From assembly GCA_016180085.1 (NCBI GenBank), contig JACPBX010000008.1:1-34078 (forward strand): 34,078 nucleotides of DNA, read 5' to 3'. The notes under the pieces were generated by a model, which saw only the letters and a program-made list of their open reading frames with translations, ran no database searches and had not been told where the DNA came from. Every line of letters begins with the position of its first letter. The first letter of the stretch is position 1. This document shows, one piece after another, positions 7,356 to 18,436 of the stretch. The DNA is from Candidatus Woesearchaeota archaeon. GTDB lineage: Archaea > Nanobdellota > Nanobdellia > Woesearchaeales > UBA10216. Both the position numbers and the translations under genes were made by a program.

Positions 7356-9740
7356 TCACTTTATGGAGTGCCCGCCGAACTGCTCCCTGAGCCCCGAGAG
7401 GACTTTTCCAGTGTAAGTTTTGCTGTTTTTCTCCGACCACTTCCTGAACTGCATGGCCCCCTCAATGATTTTTGCCTTGGCCTTGAGTTCCTTTGCTGTT
7501 TTGACTGTCCAGGCCCCTTCTCCCGTGTGGCCAACCTTGCCCGAAACTCCCTTTAGGTCTTCTCCGTGAAGCTCAAAAGCCGCCTTGAGCCAGCCGGCGA
7601 GCCTTGACTCTATGACGCTGCCGTGGTTGTAAATGTCCGCAACCCTTTTCAGGTCAAGCCTGTAACCTGACTTTTTCAGAATCTCAAAGCCTTCTGCCAG
7701 GGCCTGCATCATGCCGTACTCAATTCCGTTGTGCACCATCTTCACAAAGTGGCCTGCCCCTGCTCCCTGGAAGAACTGCACGCCGTTTGTGGCGGCGTAA
7801 TCAACTAGCAGGGGCAGCAGGTATTCATAGTCCTTTTTCTCACCGCCAACCATGAGGCATGCCCCTCGCCTTGAACCTCCCGGCCCTCCTGACACGCCAA
7901 CATCCGCAAACCTTATCCCTCTCCTGGTCAGCTCATTGTGCCTCCTTGCCGAGTCCTTGTAGTATGAGTTTCCGCCGTCAACTATTATGTCACCCTTCTG
8001 CAGACAGTGGACAAGGCCATTGTGCTCCATTGTACCGAATATCATTTCGTCTACCGGATTTCCTGCGGGCAGCATGAGCCAGATTATTCTTGGATGTTTT
8101 AGCTTGCCCACAAGTTCCTGCAGCGAGTAAGCTCCTTTAAGGCCGTGCTTTTCAAACTCCTTGGTTTTCTCTGCTGTCCTGTTGTAGGCCACAACCTTCC
8201 AGTCCTTTTCGTGCATCCTTAGCGCCATGTTGCCGCCCATCCTGCCAAGCCCGATTATGCCAAGTTCTTTGGCGAATCCCGGCCGCACAGACTCTTCTTC
8301 TATTCTTGCCGACATCCTTGAGGCGTAGTCAGTATCTGGCATGTACGTCCTCAGCGGCACAGCGTTATTCTTCCATGCATATACATAGGGGTCAATGAAT
8401 TTCCACATGGCATTTACTTCCTCACTGCTTATGAAGAGGGTCTGGTCTCCTACGATGCAATCCAGAAGGAGCCTTTCATACTCTTCAACGTACTGTACCC
8501 GGTTCTCTGCTTCCCTGTAAAGCATCTTCAAAGCTCTTTTGTCTATTTCTGACGTGAGGCCTGGCTTTTTGAGCCAGAAATGGACAGTTATGGCCTCCAC
8601 CGGCTCCAGGCTGAACACGACCTCACTGTGGTAGTGCTTGGCGGCTGTTGGCTGGCACAGGCATGGCGCCGGGTGCTTTAGCACAACAACTATCTCTTTC
8701 TTGGGCTCTCCCATTCTTTTGCCGCTTTCCATTATTATTGGGACGCCCTGCCACCTTTCATTGTCAATGTACGCCCTGATTTTGAAGTAGGTCTCAGTTT
8801 GCGATTCTGGCGCTACACCATTAATTTTCCTGTAGCCGTCGTACTGTGCCCTGAAGGAGTTGTTCCTGATTTCCTCCTCAGCCGGTATTTTCAGTGCCTT
8901 CAGCACCCTTGCCCTTTGCGTCCTTATGGCGTTCGGCTCCAGCTTAACAGGATGGTCCATGGCAGCAAGCGCAAGCATCTGCAGCAGGTGGTTCTGGCCT
9001 ACATCCCTGAGGCAGCCTATGCTGTCGTAAAAGCTTCCTCTGTCATCAACGCCCAGCTCCTCAAACACCCTGATATGTATTCGCTCTATGAACTGGTTGT
9101 TCCAGCTCTGCTCGAAAAGGCTGTTGGAGAACCTGAAAGAGAGTATGTTTTGCAGCATGTCCTTGCCCAGGTAGTGGTCTATCCTGTAGATTTGCTCTTC
9201 CTTGAACAGCTTGCCCAGCAGTAGGTCCAGTTCTTCAGCTGTCTTGAGGTCCTTGCCAAAGGGCTTCTCAACCATTACCCGTGTCCAGCCCTCTTCCGGC
9301 CCGCATCCTTTTGTCAGGCCTGAGGCTGCCAGGTTATTGAATATGTTCTTGTAGAACTCCGGGGCAACTGCAAGGTAGAACAGCTTGTTGGTGCACACTC
9401 CCCACTGCGAATCTATCTGCCCAATTTTCTTAGCCAGGCTCTTGTATGTGGTTTTTTTGTCAAAAAGCCCCTTGTGGTAGGAGAAGAGCTGCAGGAAAGG
9501 CTTCAGCTCAGGGTCGGCCTTTGTTGTGTCCTTGTGCTGGCTGAGGAATTCCGCAACCATTCTCCTGAAGTCTTTGTCAGAGTAGTCACGCCTGGAAACC
9601 CCCACTACCCTGAACATCCTTGGCAGCATGCGCTTCTTGTGGAGGTGGAACAGGGCAGGCACTATTTTCCTGGCCATCAAGTCGCCTGTTGCGCCGAATA
9701 TTACTACTGTTGACGGAATGTTCTGTTTCGGGCTGAGCAT
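7356..9740 (-). CDS. Fused glucose-6-phosphate dehydrogenase / 6-phosphogluconate dehydrogenase
   Basis: One uninterrupted frame of 794 residues joins two consecutive oxidative pentose phosphate enzymes. Residues 1-485 are a Zwf-type G6PDH: Rossmann motif GATGDL (16-21), substrate motif RIDHYLGK (186-193), and the catalytic-His region VGQNHLLQ (His251). Residues about 492-794 are a short, GndA-type decarboxylating 6PGDH: GLGRMG (497-502), DGGNS (588-592), GVSGGPGG (615-622), and HFVKMVHNGIEYG with catalytic Lys667. NRTAEK (520-525) after the second Rossmann strand favours NADP(H). The joining segment is short (RMSARIEEESVRPGFA). No lactonase domain is present between the two, so the lactone would hydrolyse spontaneously or through a separate enzyme. 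A TATA box GGTTTATATC (about 9767-9776) lies 27 or more bases before ATG 9740. Confidence 0.92.
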   Translation of the reverse strand: MLSPKQNIPSTVVIFGATGDLMARKIVPALFHLHKKRMLPRMFRVVGVSRRDYSDKDFRRMVAEFLSQHKDTTKADPELKPFLQLFSYHKGLFDKKTTYKSLAKKIGQIDSQWGVCTNKLFYLAVAPEFYKNIFNNLAASGLTKGCGPEEGWTRVMVEKPFGKDLKTAEELDLLLGKLFKEEQIYRIDHYLGKDMLQNILSFRFSNSLFEQSWNNQFIERIHIRVFEELGVDDRGSFYDSIGCLRDVGQNHLLQMLALAAMDHPVKLEPNAIRTQRARVLKALKIPAEEEIRNNSFRAQYDGYRKINGVAPESQTETYFKIRAYIDNERWQGVPIIMESGKRMGEPKKEIVVVLKHPAPCLCQPTAAKHYHSEVVFSLEPVEAITVHFWLKKPGLTSEIDKRALKMLYREAENRVQYVEEYERLLLDCIVGDQTLFISSEEVNAMWKFIDPYVYAWKNNAVPLRTYMPDTDYASRMSARIEEESVRPGFAKELGIIGLGRMGGNMALRMHEKDWKVVAYNRTAEKTKEFEKHGLKGAYSLQELVGKLKHPRIIWLMLPAGNPVDEMIFGTMEHNGLVHCLQKGDIIVDGGNSYYKDSARRHNELTRRGIRFADVGVSGGPGGSRRGACLMVGGEKKDYEYLLPLLVDYAATNGVQFFQGAGAGHFVKMVHNGIEYGMMQALAEGFEILKKSGYRLDLKRVADIYNHGSVIESRLAGWLKAAFELHGEDLKGVSGKVGHTGEGAWTVKTAKELKAKAKIIEGAMQFRKWSEKNSKTYTGKVLSGLREQFGGHSIK

Positions 9741-12147: not shown

Positions 12148-12573
12148 TTACCCTGTGCTCCCGAACCCGCCTCTCGTTTTCCCCATTTTGTCAGTTTCTT
12201 CCCATTCAAACCTGTCCACTTTCACAAATATTCCCTGCGCTACCCTTTCGCCTTTCTCAACTTTAACAACTTTATCTGTGTTGTTATAGACCTGCACTTT
12301 TACCTCATCGCCTTCTCCGCAGTAGTCGTTGTCAATTACGCCTATGCCGTGGGGCTTAATCAGCCCTTTCTTTCTTGGCGTAGAGCTTCGCAGCGCAACC
12401 AGCAGCATATATCCTTGCGGCGTTTCAACAATAATGTTTCCTGGAATAAGTGCAATCTCGCGCGGCTTTATCTCCATGTCCTCCCTAGAATAAATGTCAA
12501 ACCCCACCGAGCCGGAAGTCTGGTAAGTCGGCAGAGGCAGTGACTTGTCTACGCGCTTTATTTTGACTTTCAT
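12148..12573 (-). CDS. dut: Trimeric dUTP diphosphatase
   Basis: The 141-residue protein shows all five dUTPase motifs in order: GSVGFDIYS, RSSTPRKKGL, GVIDNDYCGEGDEV (with the catalytic Asp), KVEKGERVAQ, and the C-terminal Phe-arm KTRGGFGSTG. It hydrolyses dUTP to dUMP, keeping uracil out of DNA and feeding dTMP synthesis. The length is typical. It starts nine bases after nrdR and ends three bases before ldh, so the three share a transcript. Confidence 0.95.
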   Translation of the reverse strand: MKVKIKRVDKSLPLPTYQTSGSVGFDIYSREDMEIKPREIALIPGNIIVETPQGYMLLVALRSSTPRKKGLIKPHGIGVIDNDYCGEGDEVKVQVYNNTDKVVKVEKGERVAQGIFVKVDRFEWEETDKMGKTRGGFGSTG

Positions 12574-12582
12574 TGTAGTACC

Positions 12583-13029
12583 CTATTTCTTAATCAGCTT
12601 CTTCAGCTCTTTCTCGAAGCTTTCCAGGTCGGCGAACTGCCTGTAGACCGAAGCGAACCTTATGTAAGCGACTTTGTCGAGCTTCTTCAGTTTTCTCATA
12701 ACCAGTTCGCCAACGTGGCTGCTGCTTACCTCTTTCTTTTCTTCGTTTCGCAGCTCGGCCTCTATCTCATCAACTGCATGGTCTATCTTTTCCTGCGGTA
12801 TGGGTCTTTTCTCGCAGGCTTTCGTCATGCCGTTTCTGAGCTTCTCGCGGTTAAAGGGCTCCCTTCTCCCGTCCTTTTTCACAACTACGAGGTCAAAGGG
12901 CTCAATCCTTTCGTAAGTCGTAAACCTTTTTTTGCAGCGAAGGCACTCTCTCCTGCGCCGCGTTGCCTCGTTTGCTTCGCGTTTGTCAACTACCTTGTGA
13001 TCCTCGTTGCCGCAGTAGGGACAGTTCAT
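12583..13029 (-). CDS. nrdR: NrdR, ATP/dATP-sensing repressor of ribonucleotide reductase
   Basis: The 148-residue protein is a textbook NrdR. It has an N-terminal zinc ribbon (MNCPYC with C3/C6, and [14 protein letters not shown] with the second pair), then an ATP-cone from about residue 48 ([20 protein letters not shown]), and the family's [13 protein letters not shown] near the C-terminus. In bacteria NrdR senses ATP/dATP through the cone and represses RNR genes by binding paired NrdR boxes. NrdR is mainly bacterial but occurs in some archaea. Two candidate boxes sit upstream of nrdJ in this window. A TATA box (minus-strand CATTTAAAAAC, about 13048-13058) gives nrdR its own promoter. Confidence 0.95.
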
Positions 13030-13074: not shown

Positions 13075-13641
13075 TCAAATTGGCAGCTCTGATTTCAGCT
13101 TCGATATTAATGCTTCAGTTTCCAGGCTCCTGTTTTCTACTACCCAGCTGTATAGCAGTGGGCTCAGCGTCACGGAGAATGCAAGGTTTCCTGCCAGATG
13201 CAGGAGAGTGAATGGTATTTGTCCTGTCACTGCCTGCACGAATGGCTGTGCGAAAAAGAGAGGGCCTATTGTCAGGCCTGTGGCAGCATCGTAAGCCAGA
13301 GTCCCTAATACAGAAAATATTGCATAGTTTTTGACAGAGCTTTTTCTGCTTTTGAAAAACCATGCGGCGCCAATCCCAACTGCCCCGTAGGCAGCCGCTG
13401 TTATCAATGTCCAGATTCCAGCCTTTTTGGTGAATAAGTCGAACAAAGTTATGCTGAGGAAGCCAAAAGCAAACCCTCCCAAGTAGCCGAATTTTTTGCT
13501 GAAAGGCATGTTTGCGGTCATCACAGGCTCAATATTCGGCGGCCTGAATGGTATTAGCCTTATTGCGAAGCATGCAACAAAACCTATAACGTATTTTGCC
13601 AAATTATTTTTGGCGAGTGTAATTTCCTTCATCTTTTCCAA
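13075..13641 (-). CDS. ECF-transporter S-component-like membrane protein, possible cobalamin uptake
   Basis: The 188-residue protein has about six hydrophobic segments and the sequence RLIPFRPPNIEPVM near the N-terminus, followed by GGFAFGFLSITLFDL and YDAATGLTIGPLFF. This arrangement is typical of energy-coupling-factor S components and related small vitamin-uptake membrane proteins. The family call is by pattern only. The gene overlaps the end of the cobalamin adenosyltransferase gene by 13 bases and belongs to the nrdJ transcript. Cobalamin or a cobinamide precursor is therefore the natural guess for its substrate; that is inference. No ECF ATPase or T component lies in the window. Confidence 0.6.
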   Translation of the reverse strand: MEKMKEITLAKNNLAKYVIGFVACFAIRLIPFRPPNIEPVMTANMPFSKKFGYLGGFAFGFLSITLFDLFTKKAGIWTLITAAAYGAVGIGAAWFFKSRKSSVKNYAIFSVLGTLAYDAATGLTIGPLFFAQPFVQAVTGQIPFTLLHLAGNLAFSVTLSPLLYSWVVENRSLETEALISKLKSELPI

Positions 13642-14174
13642 TACTCGTAGTTTGGCTTTTCTTCCGTAATGCTCCTTCTTCTGTTCTCAACCCTTGCCAT
13701 TATGTGGAGCAGCGATGACAGCCTGTTGGCGTACTTAAGCAGCAGCGGGTTAACCTCCGCGGATTTTGCCAATCTTACCAGCTGCCTTTCAGCCCTTCTT
13801 GAGACAGTCCTGGAGAGGTGGAGCAGGGCTGCCTCTTTGCTTCCTCCCGGCAGCAGGAAGGAGTGTTGGGGCTCCACAAACCTTTCGCATTCCGCGATTA
13901 TTTTTTCAATCCTTTCAACGTGCTTTTCTGTTATTTTCGGAACAGTTTCCACCGCAGCTCCAAGCTCTGCGCATATTGTGTGAATATCATCCTGCGCAGA
14001 CTTCAAAATTCTAACTGTATCATCAGAGCCGGCAAAAGCCCCCACAACGCCAATCACAGAATTAAGCTCGTCATAAGTGCCAAGGGCTTCTATCCTATCA
14101 TCATCCTTCTCTACGCCTGTTTTCCCAAGCAAGCACGTCGTTCCATTGTCTCCTTTGCCAGTGTACAATGCCAT
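13629..14174 (-). CDS. PduO-type cob(I)alamin adenosyltransferase
   Basis: The 181-residue protein carries the PduO-family signatures: YTGKGDNGTTCLLG at the N-terminus (ATP binding), RIEALGTYDELNS (about 27-39), FLLPGGSKEAALLHLSRTV, SRRAERQLVRL, and a C-terminal NRLSSLLHIMARVENRR. It transfers adenosyl from ATP to cob(I)alamin, making adenosylcobalamin. That is the cofactor needed by the class II ribonucleotide reductase encoded just upstream in the same direction. The gene lies 16 bases after the mini zinc-ribbon gene and 13 bases into the following membrane protein gene, so this is one operon. Confidence 0.95.
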   Translation of the reverse strand: MALYTGKGDNGTTCLLGKTGVEKDDDRIEALGTYDELNSVIGVVGAFAGSDDTVRILKSAQDDIHTICAELGAAVETVPKITEKHVERIEKIIAECERFVEPQHSFLLPGGSKEAALLHLSRTVSRRAERQLVRLAKSAEVNPLLLKYANRLSSLLHIMARVENRRRSITEEKPNYEYWKR

Positions 14175-14189: not shown

Positions 14190-14306
14190 TCATGTGCAGA
14201 TTCCCCAGCCGCATTCCTCGTTCTTGCAGCTGAAGCATGTGCCGTCATCCGTGTCTTCCTTTTCCACCGGGCCGCCGCAGTTAGGGCATTTCGTTATTTC
14301 GTTCAT
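14190..14306 (-). CDS. Mini zinc-ribbon protein resembling the NrdJ C-terminal cysteine tail
   Basis: A 38-residue frame begins MNEITKCPNCGGPVEKE and ends CGWGICT. It has six cysteines: C7-x2-C10-x13-C24-x2-C27-x4-C32-x4-C37. The last 30 residues of NrdJ, encoded just upstream, have the same order and spacing (C995-x2-C998-x10-C1009-x2-C1012-x4-C1017-x4-C1022). Matching residues include CPxC, CxSCxNExCG and a final Cys. It therefore looks like a free-standing copy of the RNR tail. In NrdJ enzymes the tail cysteines relay electrons from thioredoxin-like donors to the active site. The gene sits 15 bases after nrdJ and 15 before the adenosyltransferase gene, so it is co-transcribed with both. 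It is too short for most gene callers. Confidence 0.75.
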   Translation of the reverse strand: MNEITKCPNCGGPVEKEDTDDGTCFSCKNEECGWGICT

Positions 14307-14321
14307 TTTTTCCTGCTAATG

Positions 14322-17300
14322 TCATACTTCGCACTTGCTGAAGCCGCACGTTTCGTTAAGGCAGCTGTGGCAGCCGTTTTCGATTTTCAGCGTTTTATTG
14401 CTGCACGATGGGCATATGCTCAGCTTCATGTCAGAGGCTGTTATCTCTGTGCTGTTTTTGCCGTGCCCCTGCCTTGCTTCCGCGGCTGCTGCAGTCTCCA
14501 AGCCTGCAGCTGCTTTTGTGAAGACATACCTTCCTCCGTCTTTTTTAATCTGGCCGTTCTTCGCAGCGCTGTAGACTGTTGTCAGCCTTCCATCTGGCAG
14601 GGCTATCACATCATCTCCCCTCATGAGCCTTTGTTCGCCATCAACCTCAACATCATACTGCTCTTCCGCTGCTTTTTGGAACTCTGATTTCTGCGTGCCA
14701 GTGCTCAGTATCGGGTAGCGGGAGCCTTCCCTGTAGATGGTTATGCCCTTGAGGCCGTTCTTCCACGCGTCAAGGTAGATGTTTGATATGGTCTCAGGGT
14801 CAATGTCCTCAGGCAGGTTTACTGTTGATGATATGCTGTGGTCAACATATTTCTGCCATAGGCCCTGAGTCATTACCCTCTTGCCCGGGTCGATGAAATG
14901 TGCTGTCCTGAAGAAATGGGCGGGCAGTATGCGCTTCAGCTCATCAGCATCCTTGCATTTTTGCGCTTCTTCAGCCAGGTTGTGCTGCTGGATGTACGCA
15001 TCCACAGTCGAATGAAATATCTTGAAGAACATGTTGCTTCCTCCGGAACTCAGGCCCTCAGACCTCCTGGTGTAGTAAAGCGCGAATACAGGCTCTATGC
15101 CCCCGCTGACACCTATGAAATTCCTGTCACCAAGCTTGTAGCCGAGCACTATGTTGGATATTGTCCCTGTTGGCGCTATTGAAAGGATTGCGATGTTCCT
15201 GAGCCCTTTCTTCCTTATGAGTTCCTTTGTTTCGTCTGTAAGCACTTCCTGGAAGAAGTTTCCCTTGCTGTAGGCCTGATACTCGAATATCGGCGATGGC
15301 GATTTCTCCTCTGCCAGGCTTGCTGATGCCTGGTAAGCAGTATTCGAGAACAGTTTGGCAGACTCTTCGAGTATCTTTACGCCTTCCTCGCTGTCATAGC
15401 CAATGCCAAGCTGGTTAAGCATGTCTGCTATGCCCATAACACCCAATCCAACTCTTCTGGTTTCGTAAGCTGCCTTTCGCTGCTTTTCAAGCGGGTTCAG
15501 GAGCTCATTCCACGTAACCACGTTGTCCAAAAATCTCACTGCAAGCGCGGTTGTTTCCTTGATGCCGCCCCAGTCTATCTCTGCCTTGTCTGTGTAGCCG
15601 CTTTTGACAAACCTCGACAAATTGACAGATGCCAGGTTGCATGCCCCGCCGTCCTCAAGAGGAACCTCGGCGCAAGGGTTCGTGCTCGCTATTGGCCTCC
15701 CAACATAGTTGGATGGCGAGTACTTGCTCATTGTAGACCAGAATATGAGCCCTGGCTCGGCTGTCCTGTAGTTGCCTTCTATAAAGGCGTTCCAGATGGT
15801 TCTTGCCTTAACCATCCTCTTTATCTCGTTAGTCTCGCGCGAATTGTAATAAAGCATGAAGTCTCCTGCTTGCTTTATTGCAAGGTCAAACTCAGAGCCC
15901 CTGTCAGGAACGACAATGTCGCCAAACATGTCCCTCCTTCCAGCGTCAGCCAGGTCCCTTCCGCTTAACGGTCCTGCGCCGTGCTCTGACAGGAACCTGT
16001 TAAGCTCTTGCAGCGTGTCAAATGTTTTCAGCAGCCTGTATTTTTCTATCGGCTTCGATGGTATGCCGTATGAGTAGTGCACTGCCCCGCCTTGCATTAT
16101 TCCAAGTCCGGATACTGCCTTGTCTTTCAGATAAACAAGGAGCTTTTCAGTGCCATACCTATTCTGCTCATCAACCGCCTGCATGAACTCGTCTGATATC
16201 TTCAGGCTTATGTTGGCGAACCTCACCTGCGTGTTCTCCCTCACCTGCCGTTCTATTTCCCTGAGCTGCTTCTCATTGAACTGGTTCGACCACTTGCACT
16301 GCTCGACTATCTGGTTCGTCACCCAGTTCGGCATCTTCTTCACGTTTATGAAGTGCTGGCTGTCAGGGTGCTTTATGTCAATGGTGAGCATGAGGGCTCC
16401 CCTTCTTCCTGACTGCCCGATCAGCCCCGTGGTTAACGAGAAAAGCTCCATGAAGGAGACGCTTCCTGTTGAGGTATCGGCCGCGTTGTGAACTACTGAG
16501 CCTTTCGGCCTTAGCACAGATATGTCCACCCCAATCCCGCCGCCATAAGAATAAGTCCTGGCGCATTCGTAAGCAGACTGGTAGATTGACTCTATGTTGT
16601 CCTCTGCTATGAGCGAAACAAAGCAGTTGGCAAGTGTCTTTAGCCTGTATAAATCTCCCCCACCGGCAATCACTCTCCCTCCCGGCACAAAATAGCCCTC
16701 GTACAGCGCCCTGTAGAACCGTGCTGCCCATTCCTGCTGCTTTTCAGGCGTTGACTCAACAGCCGCCATAAAAGCTGCAAGCCTTGAAAACGCATCCTCA
16801 GGCCTTTTCTCAATCAGCTTGTTGCTAAGGTCCTTCAGGAAATATTTCTTCTGGTAGATGCTTGTTGCCAGCTCATTCGCATTAAGGTAGTCTCCTGGGT
16901 GAACAGGCATTTCCCCTTTCTTTTGCAGGTCTTTCAGGTAGAACAAAAGGTTCTTGTAAGCCTCAATCCTGTCATACCCTATAATTGATGCAAGCTTGCT
17001 CTTGTGGGCGAACATGTCAAGCAGCGCTGTCTTCTCACCATCGCTGCCCTTTGCAGCCTCAGCGGCCGCCTGCCTTAGTTCGGCCCTCTTTGCCCTGTAA
17101 AGTATGTACGCCTTCGCTGTCTTGGCATGGCCTTCCTCTATGAGTATCTTTTCAACAGCATCCTGGACCTCTTCCACTGTTGGTATCTTCTCGTTTTTTG
17201 ACACAAAATCAACGACAAGCCCTGACAGCCTATCTGCCTCTTTCCTGTCGCTTCCGCCAACAGACCTTGCAGCCTTCATGATGGCAGAGGTTATTTTTTC

Positions 17301-17396
17301 ATCGTCAAAGTTAACAACCCTTCCATCGCGCTTGACTATCTTGGGAATCCTGCTGACGGACATGGCTTTCCCTGCATCGAAGGCTTTTGGTGTCAT
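14322..17396 (-). CDS. nrdJ: Adenosylcobalamin-dependent (class II) ribonucleoside-diphosphate reductase
   Basis: The 1024-residue protein starts with an ATP-cone (about 15-105, KRDGRVVNFDDEKI), the allosteric dATP/ATP site. The 10-stranded barrel follows: TLANCFVS with Cys258 (first redox cysteine) and the catalytic loop NPCAE with Asn573, Cys575 and Glu577. The tail has six cysteines (995-1022). There is no separate radical-generating subunit nearby and a cobalamin adenosyltransferase gene lies two genes downstream, so class II is the clear call. It reduces ribonucleotides for DNA synthesis. No intein is visible; an extra stretch of about 85 residues (around 430-510) precedes the DFMLYYNSRETNE region. 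ATG 17396 is preceded by GAGGT, eight bases upstream. The leader of about 60 bases contains one NrdR-like box, with a second at the transcription start. Confidence 0.93.
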   Translation of the reverse strand: MTPKAFDAGKAMSVSRIPKIVKRDGRVVNFDDEKITSAIMKAARSVGGSDRKEADRLSGLVVDFVSKNEKIPTVEEVQDAVEKILIEEGHAKTAKAYILYRAKRAELRQAAAEAAKGSDGEKTALLDMFAHKSKLASIIGYDRIEAYKNLLFYLKDLQKKGEMPVHPGDYLNANELATSIYQKKYFLKDLSNKLIEKRPEDAFSRLAAFMAAVESTPEKQQEWAARFYRALYEGYFVPGGRVIAGGGDLYRLKTLANCFVSLIAEDNIESIYQSAYECARTYSYGGGIGVDISVLRPKGSVVHNAADTSTGSVSFMELFSLTTGLIGQSGRRGALMLTIDIKHPDSQHFINVKKMPNWVTNQIVEQCKWSNQFNEKQLREIERQVRENTQVRFANISLKISDEFMQAVDEQNRYGTEKLLVYLKDKAVSGLGIMQGGAVHYSYGIPSKPIEKYRLLKTFDTLQELNRFLSEHGAGPLSGRDLADAGRRDMFGDIVVPDRGSEFDLAIKQAGDFMLYYNSRETNEIKRMVKARTIWNAFIEGNYRTAEPGLIFWSTMSKYSPSNYVGRPIASTNPCAEVPLEDGGACNLASVNLSRFVKSGYTDKAEIDWGGIKETTALAVRFLDNVVTWNELLNPLEKQRKAAYETRRVGLGVMGIADMLNQLGIGYDSEEGVKILEESAKLFSNTAYQASASLAEEKSPSPIFEYQAYSKGNFFQEVLTDETKELIRKKGLRNIAILSIAPTGTISNIVLGYKLGDRNFIGVSGGIEPVFALYYTRRSEGLSSGGSNMFFKIFHSTVDAYIQQHNLAEEAQKCKDADELKRILPAHFFRTAHFIDPGKRVMTQGLWQKYVDHSISSTVNLPEDIDPETISNIYLDAWKNGLKGITIYREGSRYPILSTGTQKSEFQKAAEEQYDVEVDGEQRLMRGDDVIALPDGRLTTVYSAAKNGQIKKDGGRYVFTKAAAGLETAAAAEARQGHGKNSTEITASDMKLSICPSCSNKTLKIENGCHSCLNETCGFSKCEV

Positions 17397-17416
17397 GTTT
17401 CATTACCTCACAATAA

Positions 17417-17432
17417 ATACAACCTGTTGTGT
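17417..17432. promoter_or_regulatory. Candidate NrdR box 2 (proximal)
   Basis: ATACAACCTGTTGTGT resembles the 16-base palindromic NrdR box (ACACNATATATNGTGT-like). On the minus strand it reads ACACAACAGGTTGTAT. It lies in the nrdJ leader, 21 bases before the start codon, and starts exactly 33 bases from the other box. Confidence 0.6.
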
Positions 17433-17449
17433 TTCTCTCCCGTCTAGAA

Positions 17450-17465
17450 CCCCAATATGTTGTGG
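17450..17465. promoter_or_regulatory. Candidate NrdR box 1 (at the transcription start)
   Basis: CCCCAATATGTTGTGG, read on the minus strand as CCACAACATATTGGGG, matches the NrdR box pattern with CACAA-CATATTG at its core. It covers the expected transcription start, about 25 bases from the TATA box. The two boxes are separated by 17 bases (33 between starts, close to three helical turns), matching the tandem geometry known for NrdR. Confidence 0.6.
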
Positions 17466-17476
17466 TTTCTGGATTT

Positions 17477-17494
17477 ACTTGTATTTAAAGGTTT
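17477..17494 (-). promoter_or_regulatory. nrdJ core promoter, identical 18-mer to the SUF promoter
   Basis: On the plus strand the sequence is acttgtatttaaaggttt; on the minus strand it gives a TATA box CTTTAAATAC (17481-17490) with flanking bases. Exactly the same 18 bases occur at 26727-26744, before the SUF regulator gene. Confidence 0.65.
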
Positions 17495-17598
17495 TTGTGC
17501 CAAAAACTATATTAGCCATAACTCATGACAGAATTTCTAGCTGCTGGTGATGTAAATTCAAAAGCATCAATCGCAGTTGGTATAAGTTTTATATAAAA

Positions 17599-17880
17599 TC
17601 ACTGGTTCGTCTTCCAGTACTTCTTCTGCCCCAAAATCAATGCCGCGGTAAAAAGCAGGTATGTGAGCAGGTAGCTAATCTCTGTGAGGAAGAATCCGAA
17701 ATCGACAACATCCTTGCTCTGGCCGAATCTGAATCCGAAGCCTAAAGAAAACAAAACCGGAATGAAGAATATGGGATAGAAGCTTTTCCTGCTTGTTTTG
17801 AACCGCGAAAGAAAATTGTTAAGAAGCATCATTAAGATTAACACCACAACAAATTCCCCAACTGCCTGCCACGCTTGCAT
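17599..17880 (-). CDS. Small membrane protein, function unknown
   Basis: The 93-residue protein begins MQAWQAVGEFVVVLILMMLL and has three hydrophobic segments (about 8-24, 34-50, 64-83) with a basic stretch between the first two (SRFKTSRKS) and a basic tail (GQKKYWKTNQ). I recognise no family. ATG 17880 is followed upstream by a very A/T-rich region (ATATATAATAAAATATATAATT-like, within about 17897-17925) that offers several TATA boxes. The gene stands alone between the nrdJ promoter and a divergent membrane protein. Confidence 0.55.
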   Translation of the reverse strand: MQAWQAVGEFVVVLILMMLLNNFLSRFKTSRKSFYPIFFIPVLFSLGFGFRFGQSKDVVDFGFFLTEISYLLTYLLFTAALILGQKKYWKTNQ

Positions 17881-18034
17881 TTTACCAACCGCAACTAATT
17901 ATAATTATATATTTTATTATATATTTTCTAAAGTGTGGAAAGCAGTATATGTTTAAAAAACTTTTGGATTTGGCATTACACATTTGACTGCGGCAGCTAA
18001 AGCTTTAAAAACATTCAGCGGCATTTGCAACTGC

Positions 18035-18436
18035 ATGCCTGGCGCTTTTGTGCATATTGCTGTTGGTCTGTTATCAGCAGCCATTGTGCACCTGAAGCAT
18101 TTCAAGCCTGAGTTCAGCCTTGCAATTTTCATTGGAAATCTCCTTCCTGATGTCCTGAAATTCGGCTTGACTGCAATAAAGCAGGGAACGCTCAGGATTT
18201 TCAGCGTCAAACAGGACGGCCTTTTCAACACTTTAGCATCAACAACTTCCAGCTCTGCAAACTGGTTCACTCTCGGCTTCTTCCTGTTGCTGCTCATAAC
18301 CTTCTTTTACCATTACCACGTCATCAAGAAGAAAAAGCTTTGGGAGTACGAGGAACTCTACATATTCTTGCTGATTGGCATCGTAACGCATCTCATCATG
18401 GATGCGCTTATAATTGAGAAAGGGCCGTGGTTTTAA
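18035..18436 (+). CDS. Membrane protein with metal-hydrolase-like His/Asp motifs
   Basis: The 133-residue protein starts MPGAFVHIAVGLLSAAIVHL. It then has FIGNLLPDVLKFG, a hydrophobic stretch of about 20 residues ending HYHVIKKKK, and IVTHLIMDALI near the C-terminus. A His near the N-terminus followed by NLLPD, and a late THLxxD, recall the DUF457/YdjM-type membrane-bound putative hydrolases, which are about this size or somewhat larger. That is tentative. ATG 18035 is favoured: the box CTTTAAAAAC (about 18003-18012) is at leaderless distance, whereas the alternative TTG at 17984 lies upstream of that box. The stop overlaps the convergent endonuclease IV-like gene by four bases. Confidence 0.55.
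   Translation: MPGAFVHIAVGLLSAAIVHLKHFKPEFSLAIFIGNLLPDVLKFGLTAIKQGTLRIFSVKQDGLFNTLASTTSSSANWFTLGFFLLLLITFFYHYHVIKKKKLWEYEELYIFLLIGIVTHLIMDALIIEKGPWF

Follow-up and report, generated by a model that had tools for sequence, protein, structure and literature searches.

Paired NrdR-like boxes, a probable operator, at an archaeal nrdJ promoter and their association with nrdR across a DPANN phylum

In this study, we asked whether two palindromes that precede the gene for a class II ribonucleotide reductase (RNR) in a member of the Woesearchaeota could be the operator of NrdR, a repressor known from bacteria, placed on an archaeal promoter. The window, by which we mean the whole 34,078-nucleotide stretch analyzed, is contig 39 of a genome of ~1 Mb. 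A first-pass annotation had proposed that two palindromic 16-mers upstream of nrdJ resemble the bacterial NrdR box, and both their coordinates and a combined matrix score of 23.1 agree with that description. Box 1, the promoter-side copy farther from the gene (17450–17465, minus strand; CCCCAATATGTTGTGG on the forward strand, CCACAACATATTGGGG in gene sense), scores 12.8 bits and has a central AT together with C4 and G13. Box 2, the gene-proximal copy (17417–17432, minus strand; ATACAACCTGTTGTGT forward, ACACAACAGGTTGTAT in gene sense), scores 10.2 bits and keeps C4 and G13 around an unusual central AG. These scores come from a position weight matrix that was written from the bacterial NrdR-box consensus before relatives were scanned, and that was then checked on the operators of E. 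coli. The strict published expression C.[AT].A[AT].[AT].G fits box 1 and neither box 2, with its AG centre, nor box 2 of E. coli nrdAB. As a classifier it was not selective enough for whole loci, giving 32 pairs in the host genome, and it was blind to AG-centred boxes; the matrix was therefore used in its place.

The two 16-bp palindromes have starts 33 bp apart, are separated by a 17-bp spacer and leave 20 bp between box 2 and the start codon of nrdJ. Written in gene sense, the promoter is ...ACAAAAACC TTTAAATA caagtaaatccagaaa CCACAACATATTGGGG ttctagacgggagagaa ACACAACAGGTTGTAT ttattgtgaggtaatgaaac ATG, in which TTTAAATA is a TATA box (17482–17489, minus strand), read from the sequence and conserved in position among relatives, whose centre lies ~20 bp upstream of box 1. 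Archaeal transcription begins ~25 bp past the TATA box, so that an element at 17489–17482 on the minus strand places the predicted start at about 17460, within the upstream box, as had been proposed for the distal palindrome. The proposed separation of about three helical turns, as in known operators, holds in part: the 33 bp are real, and the 17-bp spacer sits at the upper edge of what bacterial NrdRs tolerate, since their spacers are mostly 15–16 bp, with 14–17 bp (or 24–27 bp) accepted (PMC12051234). Spacers of 17 bp support both binding and repression in bacteria (PMC12051234). C4 and G13 are the positions that NrdR of Streptomyces coelicolor reads via D15 and R17 (PMC9110341).

A fitting repressor is encoded on the strand of nrdJ, its gene beginning 4.4 kb farther downstream, a position that was also borne out. 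The nrdR gene (12583–13029, minus strand) specifies a 148-residue protein with a zinc ribbon (PF22811, residues 1–40) and an ATP-cone (PF03477, residues 48–134), which scores 195.5 bits against the TIGR00244 equivalog model (cut-off 124.65) and aligns end to end with the solved NrdRs of E. coli (E = 3e-42) and S. coelicolor (8e-32). Its two CxxC pairs are intact, and so are the residues with which the S. coelicolor protein touches DNA, namely D15, R17 and the RRRR motif (PMC9110341); the loop between R17 and RRRR carries a two-residue deletion. NrdR repressors bind DNA only with ATP or ADP plus dATP, and their ATP-only oligomers do not bind; the ATP-cone suggests that the window's NrdR would sense ATP and dATP. 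NrdJ carries an ATP-cone of its own, so dATP would act on enzyme and gene alike, as in bacteria.

Between the operator and nrdR lies a compact set of genes on the minus strand. The first is nrdJ itself (14322–17396; 1024 aa), an adenosylcobalamin-dependent RNR with an N-terminal ATP-cone according to its Pfam matches and TIGR02504 (above cut-off). It is followed by a PduO-type cob(I)alamin adenosyltransferase gene (13629–14174; PF01923, TIGR00636), whose product makes the NrdJ cofactor, and by an open reading frame with a weak match to ECF transporter S components (13075–13641; PF07155 at 29 bits, cut-off 26.7) and no NCBIfam match, a candidate for uptake of the cofactor or a precursor. Beyond nrdR come a dUTPase gene (12148–12573; PF00692) and, still on the minus strand, a malate/lactate dehydrogenase gene. 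The gaps within the cluster are at most 50 bp, or the genes overlap, from which we infer that co-transcription is likely; as nrdR belongs to the same tightly packed cluster as nrdJ, NrdR is probably autoregulated. Shortly before nrdR lies a TATA-like stretch, which makes a second, box-free promoter possible for this gene.

Three further features of these coding regions were recorded. The gap between nrdJ and the adenosyltransferase gene is filled by an open reading frame for a 38-aa CxxC mini-protein (14190–14306, minus strand). The mini-protein (MNEITKCPNCGGPVEKEDTDDGTCFSCKNEECGWGICT) contains CPNC, CFSC and other cysteines and resembles the cysteine-rich C-terminus of NrdJ. At the nrdJ loci of five relatives (G048, G064, G123, G144 and G374; loci L067, L066, L065, L069 and L068, respectively), an in-frame insertion interrupts the NrdJ match at profile position 281/282; its length varies widely from one relative to another, and it may be an intein. 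Elsewhere in the window (7356–9740, minus strand), a single 794-aa open reading frame combines glucose-6-phosphate dehydrogenase (zwf) with a 6-phosphogluconate dehydrogenase that is of gnd-related type.

We regard it as very probable that the palindromes are the operator of the NrdR encoded in the same cluster, and that an NrdR tetramer would repress from the predicted start site. As dATP rises, tetramers loaded with ATP and dATP would settle on both boxes, each box held by a pair of zinc ribbons about three helical turns from the other. Lying just downstream of the TATA box and across the start, the tetramer would keep RNA polymerase from initiating at nrdJ. Most likely the whole cluster would be silenced, from nrdJ through the adenosyltransferase, ECF-S and nrdR genes to that for dUTPase, and nrdR would thereby limit its own expression.

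The manner of repression can be judged from the placement of the boxes across loci. At 35 of 43 loci with a clear TATA element, the centre of this element falls mostly 16–25 bp (range 11–30) before box 1; given a start ~25 bp past TATA, box 1 would usually overlie the start, with box 2 over the part transcribed first. NrdR might instead bind here and act mainly by bending DNA in competition with TBP/TFB, or as a roadblock after initiation. NrdR bends each box by ~90 degrees (PMC9110341), and in some relatives box 1 is just 9–12 bp from the TATA centre, as would suit such a mode. At most loci, however, the boxes start 16–25 bp downstream of that centre and leave both TATA and BRE free, and we consider bending or a roadblock the rather less likely course. 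The simplest mechanism would be the exclusion of polymerase, or of open-complex formation, at the predicted start site.

Palindromes by themselves do not name the protein that binds them, and these could in principle serve a different, archaeal regulator while NrdR acts elsewhere. The distribution of box pairs across the host's phylum, in which the NrdR zinc ribbon (PF22811) is present in 273 of 371 genomes, argues against this. The nrdJ and nrdR loci were taken from genomes with and without nrdR, a pair being defined as at least 18 bits at a spacing of 31–33 bp. Pairs were found at RNR or nrdR loci in 39 of 64 NrdR-positive genomes versus none of 30 NrdR-negative ones (Fisher p = 1.8e-9), a comparison in which the groups are imperfectly matched, as the positive loci are longer on average and include nrdR promoters, and in which the negative calls rest on incomplete MAGs. 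Counted by family, pairs occurred in 21 of 29 with nrdR and in 0 of 19 sampled without it (Fisher p = 3.8e-7), and in mixed families (e.g., f9, f65 and f80) only the NrdR-positive members had them. Scanning 121 kb of NrdR-negative loci yielded zero pairs, and when spacings from 17 to 69 bp were counted, strong pairs piled up at 31–33 bp in NrdR-positive loci only. That spacing suits an NrdR tetramer, and the recurring box (C4, A6, A8/T9, T11, G13) fits the bacterial NrdR box. A different regulator is thus improbable. About one-third of the NrdR-positive genomes have no clear pair at the sampled loci, some of which are truncated; some of these genomes probably regulate another RNR copy.

Paired boxes upstream of nrdJ or nrdRJ are therefore conserved in relatives that carry nrdR and were not found in the sampled relatives that lack it, so that the refuting condition named in the first-pass annotation, a lack of such conservation, did not hold. 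The proposal of a bacterial repressor–operator pair at work on an archaeal TATA promoter is supported by this co-occurrence, by the retained DNA-contact residues and by the overlap of box 1 with the TATA-predicted start at most loci, but the phylum-wide spread does not fit a lone import from bacteria. An NrdR tree resolved no bacterial donor, the sequences being short, the bacterial rows few and the branch support weak, and it was compatible with one acquisition by the phylum as well as with several. At linked loci of the phylum the pair usually precedes the nrdR of an nrdR–nrdJ unit, whereas in the host's family it precedes nrdJ and nrdR lies downstream. One locus (L058; G294:C7:52000-60457) has two tandem nrdJ genes (open frames of 1003 and 721 aa) with nrdR behind them, and a tandem box pair precedes the first nrdJ.

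The closest named relative of the window is a Candidatus Woesearchaeota (locus L032), whose NrdJ is 94% identical. Within the host's family, nearly all contigs showing both genes have nrdR after nrdJ on the same strand within ~0.5–1.4 kb. Both boxes are kept at the same place in all eight genera compared; in one of them (L067) the pair at this place is weaker, scoring 12.7. Mean pairwise identity among these genera is 73% for box 1 and 80% for box 2, and 36, 35 and 39% before, between and after them, respectively; because the matrix chose where the boxes lie, the box identities are biased upwards, an effect to which the homologous positions and the C4/G13 of both boxes, invariant in 8/8 genera, are less exposed. 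The central AT of box 1 is likewise found in all eight. The starts are 33 bp apart in the host's genus and 31 or 32 bp in the others (spacers of 15–17 bp). Fixed boxes with a spacing that drifts by 1–2 bp are the pattern expected under selection for a flexible tetramer, as bacterial NrdRs accept 14–17 bp (PMC12051234).

These data also bear on the suggestion that what is conserved here is a promoter, or an RNA element in the 5' untranslated region such as a cobalamin riboswitch or hairpins, and that the palindromes are incidental to it. Cobalamin is used by nrdJ, box 2 would fall in the leader, and members of the genus share a well-conserved sequence directly around the promoter. Outside the genus, however, only the boxes and TATA are conserved, with spacer and flanks at 35–39% identity, and box 1 straddles the expected start and would be only partly transcribed. 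A riboswitch or structured leader upstream of nrdJ was rejected after an Rfam search of 16900–18100 gave no match up to E = 1, and we hold an RNA element of any such kind to be very improbable.

The tandem pair is real and not a product of chance. Its score of 23.1 is the best in the 854 kb scanned of the host genome (about 85% of it), where the next scores are 17.1 and 15.8, so that no second convincing pair, and no further NrdR regulon, was found there. The strongest single boxes elsewhere in the genome lie in seemingly coding-like sequence and lack a strong partner at a suitable distance. In 13.6 Mb of dinucleotide-shuffled sequence (400 window shuffles) there were four pairs of at least 18 and none of at least 20, and when the 300 bp upstream were shuffled 5000 times, a score of 23 was reached once. 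Single boxes this strong do occur 24 times in the 854 kb, but with the pair unique in the genome, unmatched at 20 bits or more in the shuffled sequence and conserved across genera, the likelihood of a chance resemblance in AT-rich intergenic DNA is negligible.

The arrangement has clear counterparts in known systems. As with nrdRJ of S. coelicolor (PMC9110341), an NrdR with a zinc ribbon and an ATP-cone faces a class II nrdJ target in an autoregulated operon (predicted as such here) with two boxes about three turns apart over the start region. The S. coelicolor promoter is of the sigma-factor type, and its nrdR precedes nrdJ, an order seen in other families of the phylum but not in the host's, where nrdR follows nrdJ. 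The same matrix gave 23.0 for boxes 1 and 2 of nrdAB, 23.5 for nrdHIEF and 26.4 for nrdDG of E. coli, and the 23.1 obtained here is comparable with these verified operators. Box 2 of E. coli nrdAB (GTACTACAGGTAGTCT) shares with box 2 of the window an AG centre and a C-N-ACAGGT core, and binds NrdR tightly as part of boxes 1 and 2 (PMC12176259). The E. coli operators differ in their 31-bp spacing (33 bp here), in serving class I and III RNRs and in their bacterial promoters.

Haloarchaea offer an archaeal precedent, with nrdR-nrdB-nrdA operons that came from bacteria and place NrdR beside RNR genes (PMC3019208). At six such loci (L214–L219; nrdR-nrdB-nrdA or nrdR-nrdA-nrdB), we observed NrdR-like boxes at about 2924–2970, upstream of nrdR. 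Both groups have an archaeal NrdR next to RNR genes and, downstream of a TATA-like element, box-like sites in tandem. The haloarchaeal RNRs are of class I, however, and the spacing there is 29 bp (a 13-bp spacer) at all but one of the six loci, that of Natronomonas, where the pair is weaker and its spacing 30 bp. Haloarchaeal NrdR lacks R17, having G or E at that position, and spacing and protein seem to have co-varied.

NrdR and its paired boxes were already known in bacteria, as was the haloarchaeal case of NrdR beside transferred class I RNR genes (PMC3019208). In the literature collection searched, no paper contains both NrdR and Woesearchaeota, and NrdR is named in none of the papers listed for NrdR with DPANN terms. 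What appears to be new, as read from genome sequences, is the operator anatomy on archaeal promoters, its spread across a phylum and the probable inclusion of cofactor-supply genes. Recent papers call NrdR rare in archaea (PMC9110341, PMC12176259) and state in general terms that a few archaeal RNRs are under its control (PMC9110341, PMC12051234), in contrast to its presence, operator included, in about three-quarters of the genomes sampled from a single archaeal phylum. It seems somewhat more probable than the contrary that NrdR with its paired operator is a general dNTP-feedback switch of RNR throughout this DPANN phylum, which would occupy the start site on TBP/TFB promoters and here extend to the adenosyltransferase, ECF-S and dUTPase genes. 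One repressor–operator module used with two unrelated machineries for starting transcription would be a clean case of its kind, and it would give uncultured DPANN archaea, whose regulation is little known, a candidate circuit for dNTP control that can be tested.
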